From JAGLHV01 sp023132075 [NCBI: bacterium] (GTDB taxonomy: Bacteria; CBDUZB01; JAGLHV01), in the NCBI GenBank assembly GCA_023132075.1, contig JAGLYT010000092.1, positions 1 to 6,622 of the forward strand: a stretch of DNA of 6,622 nucleotides. Direction: 5' to 3'. The stretch's first letter is position 1, and the number at the start of each line of letters is the position of its first letter. A program made the position numbers and the translations under genes. Below the pieces are notes generated by a model. That model was not told where the DNA came from, searched no databases, and was given only the letters and a program-made list of their open reading frames with translations. Of this stretch, positions 1 through 4,184 are shown piece by piece.

Positions 1-828
1 AATAACGCACCGGATTCTGACTATAATATTTTTTATGTTGCCTCTGGTAACCGGCTGGCGTATGCCTGGACGGTAGAAACTTACACCACCCTGGCTGATT
101 GGCAAGCCTGTTATATATCTCCTGATGGAAATTCATTATCAGGAGACCCGAAATTCGTAACTCCCGGTACTGATTTTCATTTAAAATCCTTAAACGGCCA
201 CTGGACAACCGGCGGCTGGATTGACGACGATGAGTCCAGCCCCTGTATTGATAGCGGAACTCCTTATTCCGGTGGCACAGAGTATACTTATTATGCCAAT
301 GAAACTGAAGATAACGGGGATAGGGTTAATATGGGTGCTTACGCCAATACGGACCAGGCTTCACTCAGCGGGGGACTAAGTATTTCTATCGATTCTTCCA
401 TTTATGATTTTGGCACAGTACTTAAAGGAAGTACCAATATCATCGTAAGTTCCATTACAATTACCAATAATGGAGGAGTCAACGAACGCTATTCCCTTCA
501 TCTTGCTGCCCCTGCCGGCTGGACATGCGTTACTGATACTGCTCCCGGGGTGGAAGAGTTCCGTATGTGCGGTAATTTCCAAACTGCTACCGCACAAACC
601 AGCCATTTTGATATTGGGGGAACTTTTTCCGATGCTATCGGAACTACTCAGAGGGCATGTACTTCAGGAGATTTTGCCAAAGACGACGAAGGAGAGGGAG
701 CTAAAGGATATAATGTCCCCTCCGGCCAAGATAGATATTTATGGTTCAGGTTTGAATCACCGACCAGTACTACTTTAACCACACAACAAACTATAACTGT
801 AACTATAACGGCTGAACAACAGCCGTAG
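1..828 (+). CDS. Right-handed beta-helix surface protein, C-terminal part (5' end outside window)
   Basis: The frame is open from base 1 to the TAG at 826-828, giving 275 visible residues with no start, so the gene begins upstream. An ATG at 331 is internal and has no ribosome binding site. Residues 1-121 look like the last coils of a secreted right-handed parallel beta-helix protein: 'SDYNIFY', a 'TLADWQ' motif, 'GDPKF', 'DFHLKS', 'SPCIDSG' and the closing 'NGDRVNMGAYANT' are familiar from such proteins in environmental bacteria. Residues 126-275 form a separate beta-rich, Ig-like domain ('YDFGTVLKGST', 'SSITITNNG', 'GWTCVTDT', 'FRMCGNFQ', 'DRYLWFRFESP') that recurs at the end of the 1177-2211 product. 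It probably acts outside the cytoplasm. No catalytic residues are recognisable in this fragment, so no enzymatic role is assigned. Confidence 0.85.
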   Translation, partial: NNAPDSDYNIFYVASGNRLAYAWTVETYTTLADWQACYISPDGNSLSGDPKFVTPGTDFHLKSLNGHWTTGGWIDDDESSPCIDSGTPYSGGTEYTYYANETEDNGDRVNMGAYANTDQASLSGGLSISIDSSIYDFGTVLKGSTNIIVSSITITNNGGVNERYSLHLAAPAGWTCVTDTAPGVEEFRMCGNFQTATAQTSHFDIGGTFSDAIGTTQRACTSGDFAKDDEGEGAKGYNVPSGQDRYLWFRFESPTSTTLTTQQTITVTITAEQQP

Positions 829-839
829 GTGAATTTTTT
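808..839 (+). terminator. Terminator-like hairpin overlapping the end of the gene
   Basis: ACGGCTG (808-814) pairs with CAGCCGT (820-826) around the loop AACAA. A run of six T follows at 834-839, with more T-rich DNA to 860. The stem is formed by the last codons and the first base of the stop codon. The T run starts about seven bases after the stem, further away than in a textbook intrinsic terminator, so termination is likely but not certain. The same stem recurs at 2191-2209. Confidence 0.5.
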
Positions 840-864
840 CATTTTTTATTTCCGTTTTTTAACT

Positions 865-893
865 TTGATTTCAATTTATTATTTATATATAAT
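865..893 (+). promoter_or_regulatory. Predicted sigma-70-type promoter in repeat copy 1
   Basis: TTGATT (865-870) is separated by exactly 17 bases from a consensus TATAAT (888-893). The same arrangement is conserved in the second repeat copy at 2248-2276. Downstream lies an AAGGAAG ribosome binding site (916-922), but the matching ATG (925-927) is followed at once by TGA, so any product must start elsewhere, for instance at GTG 927. Confidence 0.6.
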
Positions 894-926
894 ACAAATG
901 AAATTTTACCCTTAAAGGAAGAAAAT

Positions 927-1049
927 GTGATTCTTCCAAGACCACACGATAAAAAGACAGGGAAATGGATTTTTTATTCAGAGAATGTTGAGACCGGCAG
1001 GATTGTGCAGATTGGCAAGAAATTTATGACTGAAGTTTGGGAAGAATAA
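927..1049 (+). CDS. Possible small protein, 40 aa, GTG start (hypothetical)
   Basis: A GTG at 927 follows the purine-rich AAGGAAG (916-922) by about four bases and opens 40 codons ending in TAA at 1047-1049. The product is hydrophilic and charged, beginning VILPRPHDKKTGKW and ending KKFMTEVWEE. It has no signal peptide or membrane segment, and I do not recognise a family. The predicted promoter at 865-893 lies directly upstream. The leader's ATG (925-927) overlaps this GTG but is followed directly by TGA, so the reading depends on the GTG. It could be a real small gene, the tail of a deleted gene, or chance. In the second repeat copy the same leader drives the S74 gene instead. Confidence 0.35.
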   Translation: MILPRPHDKKTGKWIFYSENVETGRIVQIGKKFMTEVWEE

Positions 1050-1176
1050 TTACCAAAATGATGATAGCGACTGCACTGATAGGCAATGAATTCCAACCTC
1101 AGCATTTGGATAACAGATTTAGTTGTAAACTATACATAAATATTACTAATAAATTCCATTTAAAAAGGGGAAAATA
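1050..1176. other. Intergenic stretch before the solenoid gene
   Basis: I see no convincing gene, hairpin or strong promoter here. Only the ribosome binding site AAGGGG (1165-1170), six bases before the ATG at 1177, is clear. Promoter-like hexamers (TTGGAT near 1107, TATACA near 1132) have poor spacing. Confidence 0.4.
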
Positions 1177-2211
1177 ATGACAAATTTCGAAAAAAAACTA
1201 AAATACTTACTTTTTATTGTTTTCTTGTTTTTTGCACGTCCACTTTATGCTAATTTTGAAATCAATGGGGCAACCGTAACCTTTAATAACAACACTGAAT
1301 TCAGGATTGTAGAAAATAGTGGCGATATAAGAATTAATAACGGTGCAATAAATTGTTCTCAGTCCCTAATTTTTCTTTCTGGAAACTGGGAAAATCAAGG
1401 TAGCTTTAATGCAGGAACATCCACAGTAACATTTGAGAATAATACAACGGCATCTACTGTCCTTGGCAACACTACTTTTTATAATCTTGCTTGCCAAACA
1501 GCAGGGAAAACAATATTTTTTACAACCGGTTCAACCCAGACAGTAACTAATCTTTTTACCTTAACCGGGGCAACCGGAAATCTTATTAACTTAAGATCTT
1601 CTGTTGATACCCAAAAATGGTATATAGATTTCCCCAATGGAAACCAAACAGTAGATTATATAAATGTAAAAGATTCTGATGCTCTTCATAATACTGTAAC
1701 CTGCTCTAATTCTACAAATTCAGGAAATAACAATTCCAACTGGATATTCGGCACCATTATTAGTATAAGCGTCTCTCCTTCCGGATATGATTTTGGCGTA
1801 GTTCTAAAAACCAGCACAAATGTAGCTACCAGCTCTATAACCGTCACCAATGATGGAAATGTAAATGAAAGATATTCCCTCCAACTTGCTGCCCCTACCG
1901 GTTGGATCTGCGTCACTGATACTGTACCCGGAATTGAAGAATTCCGTATGTGCGGTAATTTCCAAACGGCTACGGCACAAAGCAGCCATTTTGTTATTGG
2001 TGGAAGTTTTTCCGATGCTATTTATACCACTTCCCGAGTATGTTCTACAGGAGATTTTAGCAAAGATGACGAAGGGGAAGGAGCTAAAGGTTATAATGTG
2101 CCTTCCGGTCAAGATAGATATTTATGGTTCAGGTTTGAATCACCGACAAGTACAGGCTTAACTACGCAACAAACCATAACAGTAACTATAACGGCTGAAG
2201 AGCAGCCGTAG
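1177..2211 (+). CDS. Secreted beta-solenoid protein with shared C-terminal domain
   Basis: This 344-residue protein starts at an ATG preceded by AAGGGG at good spacing. Residues 1-25 are a Sec-type signal peptide: basic start (EKKLKY), hydrophobic core (LLFIVFLFFA) and a likely cut after PLYA. Residues 26-190 are rich in Asn, Thr, Gly and alternating beta strands, with motifs such as 'GNWENQGSFNAGTSTVTF', 'GNTTFYNL', 'GKTIFFTTGST' and 'YINVKDSDA'. These resemble the short beta-strand repeats of large adhesin-like solenoids, although only a few turns are present. Residues 193-344 are the domain shared with the upstream gene, with cysteines at 245, 259 and 289. The protein is expected at the cell surface or outside the cell. 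No enzyme motif is visible; adhesion or a structural role is inference. Confidence 0.85.
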   Translation: MTNFEKKLKYLLFIVFLFFARPLYANFEINGATVTFNNNTEFRIVENSGDIRINNGAINCSQSLIFLSGNWENQGSFNAGTSTVTFENNTTASTVLGNTTFYNLACQTAGKTIFFTTGSTQTVTNLFTLTGATGNLINLRSSVDTQKWYIDFPNGNQTVDYINVKDSDALHNTVTCSNSTNSGNNNSNWIFGTIISISVSPSGYDFGVVLKTSTNVATSSITVTNDGNVNERYSLQLAAPTGWICVTDTVPGIEEFRMCGNFQTATAQSSHFVIGGSFSDAIYTTSRVCSTGDFSKDDEGEGAKGYNVPSGQDRYLWFRFESPTSTGLTTQQTITVTITAEEQP

Positions 2212-2222
2212 GTGAGTTTTTT
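2191..2222 (+). terminator. Terminator-like hairpin overlapping the end of the solenoid gene
   Basis: ACGGCTG (2191-2197) and CAGCCGT (2203-2209) form the same 7-bp stem as at 808-826, here with loop AAGAG. Six T follow at 2217-2222. The loop has changed (coding Gln to Glu) while the stem is intact. Confidence 0.5.
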
Positions 2223-2247
2223 CATTTTTTATTTCCGTTTTTTAACT

Positions 2248-2276
2248 TTGATTTTGATTTATTATTTATATATAAT
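2248..2276 (+). promoter_or_regulatory. Predicted promoter of the S74 fibre gene
   Basis: TTGATT (2248-2253), a 17-base spacer and TATAAT (2271-2276) match the promoter in repeat copy 1, differing only in the spacer. Transcription would start near 2283, leaving a leader of about 40 bases with a strong AAAGGAGG ribosome binding site at 2305-2312, nine bases before the ATG at 2322. Confidence 0.65.
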
Positions 2277-2321
2277 ACAAATGAAATTTAAAAATTTTAC
2301 CTTTAAAGGAGGAAAAAGAAA

Positions 2322-4025
2322 ATGCTAAAGAGAATCACTACAGTATGGATTAAATTAATGGGAAGCAAAAAAGAAGTTCCAATTTTGTCAAAATCTAATC
2401 GGAGAAAATTTTTATGGCAATTAACTCTATTAAGTACGGGGTTGATTTTGGTCTTCTCCCAATCGCCCGGATTTGCCGGTGATATTGAAAACAAACTGAG
2501 CACAAACGATGGTTCAACTACATTTGAAGTCAGAGATTCCGTAGATTCTGTAGTTTCCCATATCGATTCCGACGGAAACGTAGTAATTAAAGGTGGATTA
2601 AGATTAGATTCAGCAGGTGTAGAATGCACCACCTCTGAAAACTTAATTGTTGACGGTAATGTCGGCATTGGAACGACAAATATTGAAGCCAAGTTGCATG
2701 TTGAATCAGATGCTACAAATTCTGCGGTATTTATAGCCAGCCACACAACTAATGGTTATGGATTGGTTGTTTCAACGAATGGCTGTGTTGGTATCGGGAC
2801 AAATAATCCAAGTACTGCATTAGATATCCAGGGGGGCCTTCTTGAGTATATGACTGTAAGGGCTATAGATGGCGAGAATAATGCGTCGTTATATGTAGGG
2901 TCTAGCCATTCATCTGTAGATAAGGCTTTGTATGTTAGACAAGATGCTGTTATAGGGCATGGACTATATGTAAGTGGATTTCAACATTATTTCGATGGTA
3001 ATGTCGGCATTGGGACAGAGAGTCCAGCAACTCCATTAGAAATTAAAGATACCTACACCACTGTGCAGGCATGTAAAGGAACCACCGCGGCATTATATGC
3101 AAATGCCAGCGACTCAAGTATAACTAGTGCTCTACAAATTAGTCATTCCGATCCCACACGGTATAGTATAGTTTCAGATGGAGGGGCACATTTTTTCAAG
3201 GGTAATGTCGGCATAGGAGATTGGCCGTACATCGGCGGGAGTTCAAAGTTACTTATTTCCGGGGATGTCCTCTTCAAGGGAATGTGCACCATAGGAGTAG
3301 AGGGACCTTGGATAGAAAGCCCTGGTTGTGACTTAAAAATTACTGCCGCTAATGGAAATCTGGATGTTGGTGGAAACTTGTATCTCTACGGTGGAAATGG
3401 ATGGCCTAATGCCGGCAATGTTATCCTTGCTCATAACAGTTCTACTTCTCAAGGCAATGTCGGTGTCGGAACAACGACTGTTGGAGCCAAATTGCACGTT
3501 GTATCAGATTCTACAAATTCGGCGGTATTTATCGCCAGTCACACAACTAATGGTTATGGATTGGTTGTTTCAACGAATGGCTATGTCGGTATTGGAACGA
3601 ATAATCCATCAGGAACACTGCATGTAAATGCTACTAACGGGATATATATTGACAATTTGGCTTCAAGCAATCAGGCGAGTGTGGAAATAGATCTGGCAAC
3701 AGGAAAACTAAGCTACATCGGTTCGAGCATAAGATACAAAAAAGATATAAGAGATTTAAAAATCAATTCAGAAGATGTATTTAAGTTAAGACCGGTAAGA
3801 TTCAAGTGGAAGAAAACGGATGAAGAGGATATAGGATTAATAGCAGAAGAAGTAAACGAAGTAATACCGGAATTGGTAAGATACGACAAAAAAGGAAAAC
3901 CGGCAACGGTGGAATACGAACTAATCTCTGTCTATTTATTAGAGGTGGTGAACCAACAACAGCAGAAAATATCGGCATTAGAGCAAAGAATTGCTGAAAT
4001 TGAAAAGAAGTTAAAGAAAATTTAG
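2322..4025 (+). CDS. Fibre-like exported protein with C-terminal peptidase S74 (endosialidase chaperone) domain
   Basis: The product has 567 residues and its start is fixed by AAAGGAGG at 2305-2312. The 26-residue polar N-terminus leads into SNRRKFLW (25-32), a twin-arginine-like motif, then a hydrophobic stretch to about 47 and a likely cut after GFA (52). Residues 111-440 form a Gly/Ser/Asn-rich stalk with six 'VGIGT'-type turns (near 113, 156, 228, 296, 380, 422), as in phage tail fibres. Residues 468-537 match the intramolecular chaperone domain: SSIRYKKDI, 'LRPVRFKWK', 'IGLIAEEVNEVIPELV'. In this family the domain guides trimer folding and cuts itself off using a Ser-Lys pair; here Ser468 and Lys473 have the right spacing. 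Residues 538-567 look like a coiled coil. A surface fibre or appendage is likely; its ligand is unknown. Confidence 0.85.
   Translation: MLKRITTVWIKLMGSKKEVPILSKSNRRKFLWQLTLLSTGLILVFSQSPGFAGDIENKLSTNDGSTTFEVRDSVDSVVSHIDSDGNVVIKGGLRLDSAGVECTTSENLIVDGNVGIGTTNIEAKLHVESDATNSAVFIASHTTNGYGLVVSTNGCVGIGTNNPSTALDIQGGLLEYMTVRAIDGENNASLYVGSSHSSVDKALYVRQDAVIGHGLYVSGFQHYFDGNVGIGTESPATPLEIKDTYTTVQACKGTTAALYANASDSSITSALQISHSDPTRYSIVSDGGAHFFKGNVGIGDWPYIGGSSKLLISGDVLFKGMCTIGVEGPWIESPGCDLKITAANGNLDVGGNLYLYGGNGWPNAGNVILAHNSSTSQGNVGVGTTTVGAKLHVVSDSTNSAVFIASHTTNGYGLVVSTNGYVGIGTNNPSGTLHVNATNGIYIDNLASSNQASVEIDLATGKLSYIGSSIRYKKDIRDLKINSEDVFKLRPVRFKWKKTDEEDIGLIAEEVNEVIPELVRYDKKGKPATVEYELISVYLLEVVNQQQQKISALEQRIAEIEKKLKKI
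2655..2810 (+). repeat. Internal 156-bp in-frame repeat, copy 1
   Basis: This encodes stalk residues 112-163 of the S74 protein and matches 3453-3608 without gaps (offset 798 = 266 codons). Bases 2742-2784 are identical to 3540-3582 (43 bases). Confidence 0.85.
3453..3608 (+). repeat. Internal 156-bp in-frame repeat, copy 2
   Basis: This encodes stalk residues 378-429, the partner of 2655-2810. It has scattered substitutions, including Cys155 in copy 1 versus Tyr421 here. Both copies carry two VGIGT-type (VGVGT/VGIGT) turns flanking the conserved 'SAVFIASHTTNGYGLVVS' segment. Confidence 0.85.
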
Positions 4026-4060: not shown

Positions 4061-4184
4061 GGAATTTCATTAAGTATTTCGGTAGATTCTTCCTTTCCAG
4101 TACTAATGTAGCTACAGATTTGAATCACCGACAACTACACAACAGACCATAACCGTAACTATAACGGCTGAACAGCAGCCATAA
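4061..4184 (+). pseudogene. Decayed remnant of a third copy of the shared C-terminal domain
   Basis: Three pieces of the domain are joined after internal deletions. Bases 4061-4093 read GISLSISVDSS, like the domain start. Bases 4096-4114 match the 'STNVAT' region. Bases 4115-4184 run from FESPT to TAEQQP and a TAA stop, like the domain end, with a further short deletion after the 'SPT' codons. The frame is broken by a TAG soon after the first junction, and there is no start codon. The stem GGCTG-AACAG-CAGCC of the terminator hairpin survives, but the following T run does not. It starts only 35 bases after the S74 stop, so a gene with this domain probably once ended here. Confidence 0.75.

Follow-up and report, generated by a model that had tools for sequence, protein, structure and literature searches.

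A C-terminal domain shared by varied exported bacterial proteins as a putative docking module of a surface assembly

Why do two exported proteins with unlike bodies end in the same domain? The question is raised by contig JAGLYT010000092.1 of the bacterium JAGLHV01 sp023132075 (assembly GCA_023132075.1), whose whole length of 6,622 nucleotides is here called the window; it is contig C382 of a draft genome of 1.87 Mb in 389 contigs, 86.7% complete. Our preferred answer, which we judge about equally likely to be right or wrong, is that the shared domain is the C-terminal docking module of an apparently undescribed surface assembly, and not a cleavable sorting tail. The features of the window on which the argument starts are the following.

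1..828, + strand: last 275 residues of a large protein with a beta-helix-like body and the C-terminal domain, truncated by the contig start
373..825, + strand: C-terminal domain, copy 1 (putative docking), within the 1..828 protein
826..925, no strand: stop codon and 3' flank, matching 2209-2316 at the DNA level
1177..2211, + strand: secreted protein of 344 amino acids (aa), ending in the C-terminal domain
1177..1251, + strand: predicted signal peptide of the 344-aa protein, cleavage after PLYA (heuristic finder)
1756..2208, + strand: C-terminal domain, copy 2 (putative docking), the copy that was modelled, within the 344-aa protein
2209..2316, no strand: stop codon and 3' flank, matching 826-925 at the DNA level

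The shared tail noted in the preliminary description of the window was found as claimed. The 149 C-terminal residues of the two proteins align without gaps and with 28 substitutions, and they include an identical run of 31 residues, KDDEGEGAKGYNVPSGQDRYLWFRFESPTST. In a search of the own genome, the second copy was returned with E = 1.1e-78, far beyond chance. Near-identity extends for some 100 bases beyond the stop codon (826-925 versus 2209-2316). The last 150 codons of the two copies show 37 synonymous and 29 non-synonymous codon differences. The two copies are therefore not a recent duplication, and, since the sharing at the DNA level runs into the 3' flank, recombination appears to move the tail. 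The three cysteines that had been called invariant are so in the window, where residues 245, 259 and 289 of the 344-residue protein match residues 176, 190 and 220 of the upstream fragment, but not across the family: all three are present in 5 of 23 aligned rows, and all five of these rows are tails of large proteins of this genus. Ala replaces Cys 245 in two other large-protein tails of the genus, one of which also has Ser at 289, and beyond the genus cysteines occur singly, mostly at 289. A disulphide-stabilised anchor is ruled out, as the cysteines vary inside the genus.

The domain is a real sequence family, and in unrelated bacteria it is again found at the very C-terminus of many secreted proteins. 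Matches were found in 6 of 98 genomes with the window domain as query and in 20 of 386 genomes, which are not independent of each other, with a 23-row profile (own genome included in both counts); the own genome holds five copies and a remnant. All fetched loci together gave 70 distinct copies, including a few in open reading frames (ORFs) cut by contig ends, and exclusion of one open-ended duplicate left 69. The profile match ends no more than 5 residues from the stop codon in 56 of these ORFs, 6-20 residues from it in 12, and far inside the protein in one. This sole internal match, in G159, is the weakest of all (domain E 3e-3) and is probably due to chance. The domain is thus terminal in 68 of 69 stop-closed ORFs, which bears out the proposal that a constant module ends exported proteins whose bodies vary. 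Body length runs from zero to over 3,000 aa, and the carriers include a 1,382-aa ORF and an ORF of more than 3,000 aa; from their sequences we take bodies to be DNRLRE-like, beta-helix, Trp/Gly-rich repeats and subtilase-like (the 1,382-aa ORF). Three genomes, G005, G292 and G153, each carry at least 8-10 matching domain tails (10 of 22-25 candidates scored), and these copy numbers are lower bounds, as at most 10 candidates were scored per genome.

The same three genomes also show that 11 of their 28 tails lie in open frames of more than 2,000 aa, that several of the tails end in LP, and that each genome has, besides the domain tails, more than 100 matches to type A tails of the type IX secretion system (T9SS).

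The domain gave no curated match in Pfam or NCBIfam. The sub-threshold matches of the domain are mainly generic immunoglobulin (Ig) families (HYDIN-like, NPCBM_assoc, choice_anch_D), which, along with the shared DNA reaching into the 3' flank, would suit an ordinary Ig/ASH-like spacer spread by recombination and having no docking role. A spacer would be expected at internal positions too, yet the domain is terminal almost throughout, and its linkage to one partner family and its small near-stand-alone copies, described below, also argue against this explanation, which we regard as very improbable.

Besides the large proteins there is a second class of carrier. Eighteen ORFs of 167-245 residues encode little beyond a signal peptide and the domain. 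Because the domain is also found in such small secreted proteins with almost nothing else, docking or assembly is favoured over sorting. For 15 of the 18, the neighbouring gene, which lies within about 600 bases, is a member of a single family, here called the partner; these small ORFs lie in G000, G001, G002, G074, G148, G153 (two), G173, G175, G258, G298 and G311, and in the metagenome-assembled genome loci L032, L033 and L034. The members of this partner family are secreted, have about 300 residues and appear to consist of two Ig domains. Among the 386 genomes, the domain was found in 20, the partner in 22 and both in 16, against an expected overlap of 1.1 (Fisher p 4e-20, a value that ignores relatedness and is hence overstated; the 16 shared genomes represent 11 family codes). 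A gene that tracks the domain, as the preliminary description had envisaged, does exist in the form of this partner, but it is not the secretion or processing gene that had been anticipated. Moreover, a large tail protein is encoded on the same fetched stretch as a small domain ORF or partner in G000, G002, G074 (as a fragment), G153, G173, G311, L032, L033 and L034. Profile comparison showed that partner and domain are not alike (probability 6), and one scan of viral contigs with one peptide pattern for the partner gave six stretches and no confirmed relative. The domain family and its conserved partner, unnamed in the curated libraries searched, are in this way delimited, and they indicate concretely which exported proteins may form a set in several uncultured lineages.

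The small proteins share a further element. Directly after the predicted cleavage site, 12 aligned small proteins display a strand of the form [IV]-x-[VIC]-[TN]-V-x-[ILP]. Scored with a matrix, this strand reaches at least 6.6 in 14 of the 15 small proteins evaluated (12 of the 14 trained the matrix, and the other two score 19.4 and 6.6) and at most 4.5 in all 40 large-protein tails. Six evaluations failing the start criterion, including L123, L124 and a 201-aa G292 protein, were left uncounted; the signal-peptide finder and the matrix are our own heuristics and describe a sequence pattern only. When 155 secreted ORFs from the fetched loci were scored, 17 came out at 11.7 or more and the next one at 6.1; none of 1,774 internal windows reaches 11.7. 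The 17 consist of 12 small domain proteins and five cluster proteins without the domain, namely a 591-residue protein from three congeneric genomes, which is one event, a 243-residue protein in G298 and a 180-residue protein in L032. The 591-residue protein has a CHU_C tail (34.5 versus a cut-off of 27 bits) and the 243-residue protein a TIGR04183 tail (35.7 versus a cut-off of 23 bits), both being tails of the T9SS type. Six further T9SS-tailed proteins from G000 and G002, all with a signal peptide that could be read, are without the strand (0 of 6, best score 1.5); these controls came from 20 stretches with 12 tailed-looking ORFs, of which six had a readable signal peptide (two being near-identical orthologues) and six were dropped. 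In TasA fibres, the accessory protein TapA has an N-terminus similar to the donor strand of TasA (PMC9674648). By analogy, a TapA-like arrangement may hold here too.

In the docking reading that we prefer, exported proteins ending in the domain would be retained in an assembly at the cell surface, whose components a conserved gene cluster encodes. This cluster would comprise a small subunit made of a signal peptide, the N-terminal strand and the domain; the secreted two-Ig protein, acting as chaperone or adaptor; often a base protein whose C-terminal tail is of the T9SS type; and, also often, an outer-membrane protein of the PorV family. The domain of one subunit would most likely receive the N-terminal strand of the preceding small subunit or of the base protein. 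The two window proteins, whose tails come without the strand, would be terminal display proteins, comparable to a large WxL protein or to FimH, which sits as the terminal protein on its pilus.

Structural models were predicted for both families. The model of the window domain, built with 14 sequences, has a mean pLDDT (predicted local distance difference test) of 85 and adopts an Ig-like beta-sandwich of seven strands. Of the Ig-like fold with a disulphide that had been suggested for the tail, the fold is therefore seen in the predicted model, while the disulphide is not conserved. In Foldseek, archaeal bundling pili are the best match (E 2e-3), followed by many chaperone-usher pilins and TasA, so that many of the matches (CsuA/B, PapE and FimG among them) are strand-exchange fibre subunits, which suggests, as far as the model goes, a fibre-subunit fold. 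The best 50 VIA matches of the domain contain no WxL chain, a result that excludes nothing. For the partner, the VIA comparison gives WxLIP 9i1y with Z 11.7 over 118 residues at 3.5 Å, covering one of the two Ig domains and tied with ciliary ASH-type chains; the partner model also resembles the PapD-type chaperones Caf1M, SfaE and FimC (Z about 10.6-10.8). At the sequence level, a search of PDB chains with the domain and partner profiles gave nothing below E 0.47.

Several known systems share part of this layout. As in chaperone-usher pili, a PapD-like two-Ig partner lies beside the gene of a subunit with an N-terminal strand, and large proteins end in the subunit domain as two-domain adhesins do; the differences are that the usher PF00577 matched in none of the 24 genomes searched (an E. 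coli control was positive), and that the domain model has seven strands including a C-terminal one. The TasA/TapA and archaeal donor-strand fibres are built from a small secreted beta-sandwich subunit that starts with a strand once the signal peptide is gone, and TasA/TapA has in addition a second protein whose N-terminus resembles that strand; the small proteins and some other cluster proteins here show putative counterparts of both. The two-Ig partner and the C-terminal copies on large proteins are extra in the present cluster, whose strand exchange we only infer, and no match to the TasA family was found among the Pfam hits of 23 domain members.

The third such system is formed by the WxL loci, for which two reports describe a three-part layout of small WxL protein, large WxL protein and WxLIP (DUF916/DUF3324) (PMC10599100, PMC9772566). 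That layout, the C-terminal position of the domain and the small protein made of a signal peptide plus the domain all recur here, and so does a two-Ig partner, with a predicted fold that has WxLIP as its joint top VIA match. The present clusters differ in that their genomes carry outer-membrane protein genes, and homology with WxL is not demonstrated. One could picture true WxL-type wall anchoring in diderms, the domain being a diverged peptidoglycan-binding WxL and the partner a diverged WxLIP; the layout, the WxLIP match (tied with a ciliary protein) and a weak match to WxLIP_PGBD would speak for it. However, the PF13731 (WxL) profile finds no match in the 20 domain genomes, a second W-x-L motif is lacking (there is one invariant W, and the last window strand reads QTITVTIT), and the match of the partner to PF06030 (DUF916)/WxLIP_PGBD is confined to one of five proteins, at E 0.006 and 17.0 versus a cut-off of 27.3 bits. 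Furthermore, comparison with profiles of five plasmid-borne WxL and five DUF916 proteins gave probabilities of just 44 and 57, and inspection of seven aligned partners revealed no hydrophobic C-terminal segment. We consider such wall anchoring distinctly unlikely. Membership in WxL itself is rejected on profile and motif.

In the six fetched plasmid loci, an annotated WxL gene adjoins a DUF916 gene in five; the sixth, L141, has no annotated WxL gene and was excluded from the profiles, and only the E. mundtii locus has small and large WxL genes together. A large protein beside a small domain gene at L032 188-1246, L033 3-1922 and L034 4249-5766 bears a shorter domain variant without the long loop, which recalls the shorter large-WxL domain described in PMC9772566. 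Separately, L135 of G256, a genome with an SprA match above the cut-off, encodes two adjacent WxL-like secreted proteins (92-745 and 843-1547), and G256 would be a case of WxL-type proteins in a probable diderm. By the tests made, the cluster resembles the layout of WxL loci, TasA/TapA and pili yet belongs to none of them. Among the titles and abstract openings of open-access papers on T9SS, WxL and donor-strand systems, none describes the domain or the cluster, which is weak evidence of absence.

Type IX secretion tails had been the comparison offered for the domain at the outset. The likeness is that an Ig-like domain ends varied exported proteins in genomes most of which have T9SS markers; the differences, with types A and B as the types compared, are the lack of a type A/B match, the near-stand-alone copies and the occurrence without detected SprA. 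Specifically, none of the 23 domain members matches TIGR04183/PF18962 or TIGR04131/PF13585 (types A and B) in the Pfam search at E<=5, and the NCBIfam search with the window protein and three small domain proteins gave no T9SS tail match. The SprA search of the domain genomes, which are drafts, returned no match in G173, G175 and G311, all of which carry domain and partner. A plain type IX tail, with no type A or CHU_C match and with these three genomes, is hence not borne out. A known type IX tail of class A or B is rejected by profile; a type C also exists, that of the ChiA tail, cl41395 (PMC10202324).

SprA is divergent in the genus of the window: it is present in three of three genomes, with a best score of 65 bits versus a curated cut-off of 200. 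Two of them have SprA-like ORFs (1,734 and 1,757 aa) in which several matches are collinear, and the third has pieces on two contigs. Each genus genome has 14-23 type A and 14-18 CHU_C matches. An SprA match was obtained in 17 of 20 domain genomes versus 136 of 366 others. In 10 of 23 fetched partner loci, PorV-family genes are found on the stretch or contig that also carries the partner (contig C112 via L008), the family profile being derived from five motif-found seed ORFs (three distinct); two PorV-family ORFs are both under the NCBIfam curated cut-off. These SprA, type A and PorV-family findings, together with the many domain copies in G005, G292 and G153, would fit a domain that is one more class of type IX signal: recognition would take place in the periplasm, and the protein would be directed through SprA with the neighbouring PorV-family proteins as shuttles. 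Such a signal is hard to reconcile with the lack of any type A, type B or CHU_C match, with the three genomes without an SprA match (of these, G173 and G175 gave a single TIGR04183 match each, and G311, 5.5 Mb and 92% complete, gave neither a TIGR04183 nor a CHU_C match), or with the 136 SprA-match genomes that are without the domain. In addition, canonical T9SS tails occur on other proteins of some clusters, and the small copies carry no cargo. We think this explanation unlikely. T9SS probably exports or anchors some cluster members in most of these genomes, and the domain is probably not its signal.

The base protein invites a separate comparison. Type B C-terminal domain (CTD) proteins are retained by PorP-like partners (PMC9143113). 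Similarly, possible base proteins of the cluster have CHU_C or type B-like tails, and PorV/PorP-family genes lie near some of them, a likeness that concerns the base protein and not the shared domain. At L007 8465-10066, L121 3286-4896, L122 3488-5152 and L131 2247-3590, a partial partner-like N-terminus is combined with a CHU_C tail, beside a domain or PorV-family gene; from their composition, these proteins are possible fused base proteins. Near the domain cluster of G311, in which SprA was not detected, L116 1976-3474 carries EpsI-like and exosortase-like genes, so named from their sequences only.

Taken further, the docking reading that we prefer leads to an usher-less donor-strand surface fibre of diderms, in which a T9SS-exported base would offer the first strand, the small proteins would form the shaft with the help of a WxLIP/PapD-like chaperone, and the large proteins would cap the fibre and be displayed on it. 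We offer this specific form tentatively, as a possibility more doubtful than not; if true, it would connect the WxL, TasA/TapA and chaperone-usher designs. If docking as such is true, surface proteins of these genomes could be predicted from their C-terminal tail, and the cluster tests whether WxL loci, TasA/TapA and chaperone-usher pili have one assembly logic.

A number of observations weigh against docking. The window genes do not adjoin the partner, which in this genome is on contig C112. Three of the 18 small ORFs (L035, G005 and G292) are without a partner neighbour, and the G005 one, 245 residues long, has about 60 residues beyond signal peptide and domain. The partner has no match in four of 20 domain genomes (G088, G159, G215, G228), nor the domain in six of 22 partner genomes; the matches are weak for the domain in G159 and G210 and for the partner in G005, G211, G248 and G292, and those in G153 are only partial. 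The strand is unclear in L124 and scores 3.2 in L123 and -9.1 in the G005 protein. The structural matches of the domain are weak, since the best Foldseek E value is the 2e-3 given above and no VIA match reaches a Z of 8; the top VIA row is the ASH domain of CEP192 (Z 7.6). The seven strands of the domain model include a C-terminal one, so that no missing strand is evident in the prediction. The partner model, built with three sequences, is of modest confidence (mean pLDDT 69.6), and its best Foldseek matches are ciliary proteins of the ASH/HYDIN type. Finally, the excess of SprA matches in domain genomes is as a type IX signal predicts.

As for the remainder of the window, the body of the 344-aa protein has no Pfam match reaching the curated cut-off. 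The 1..828 protein matches Disaggr_assoc (PF08480, E 1.4e-6), and it has a full-length paralogue, an 880-aa ORF at 818-3460 on contig C112 of G000. Further downstream, one more trace of the domain was located.

~4115..4180, + strand: decayed third domain tail, a remnant 3' of the S74 protein

The S74 protein is a 567-aa protein encoded at 2322-4025 on the + strand, in which residues 468-520 match Peptidase_S74, the chaperone of endosialidase (PF13884, E 2.7e-11). With this match near its C-terminus, it is a tail-fibre-like protein on a cellular contig.

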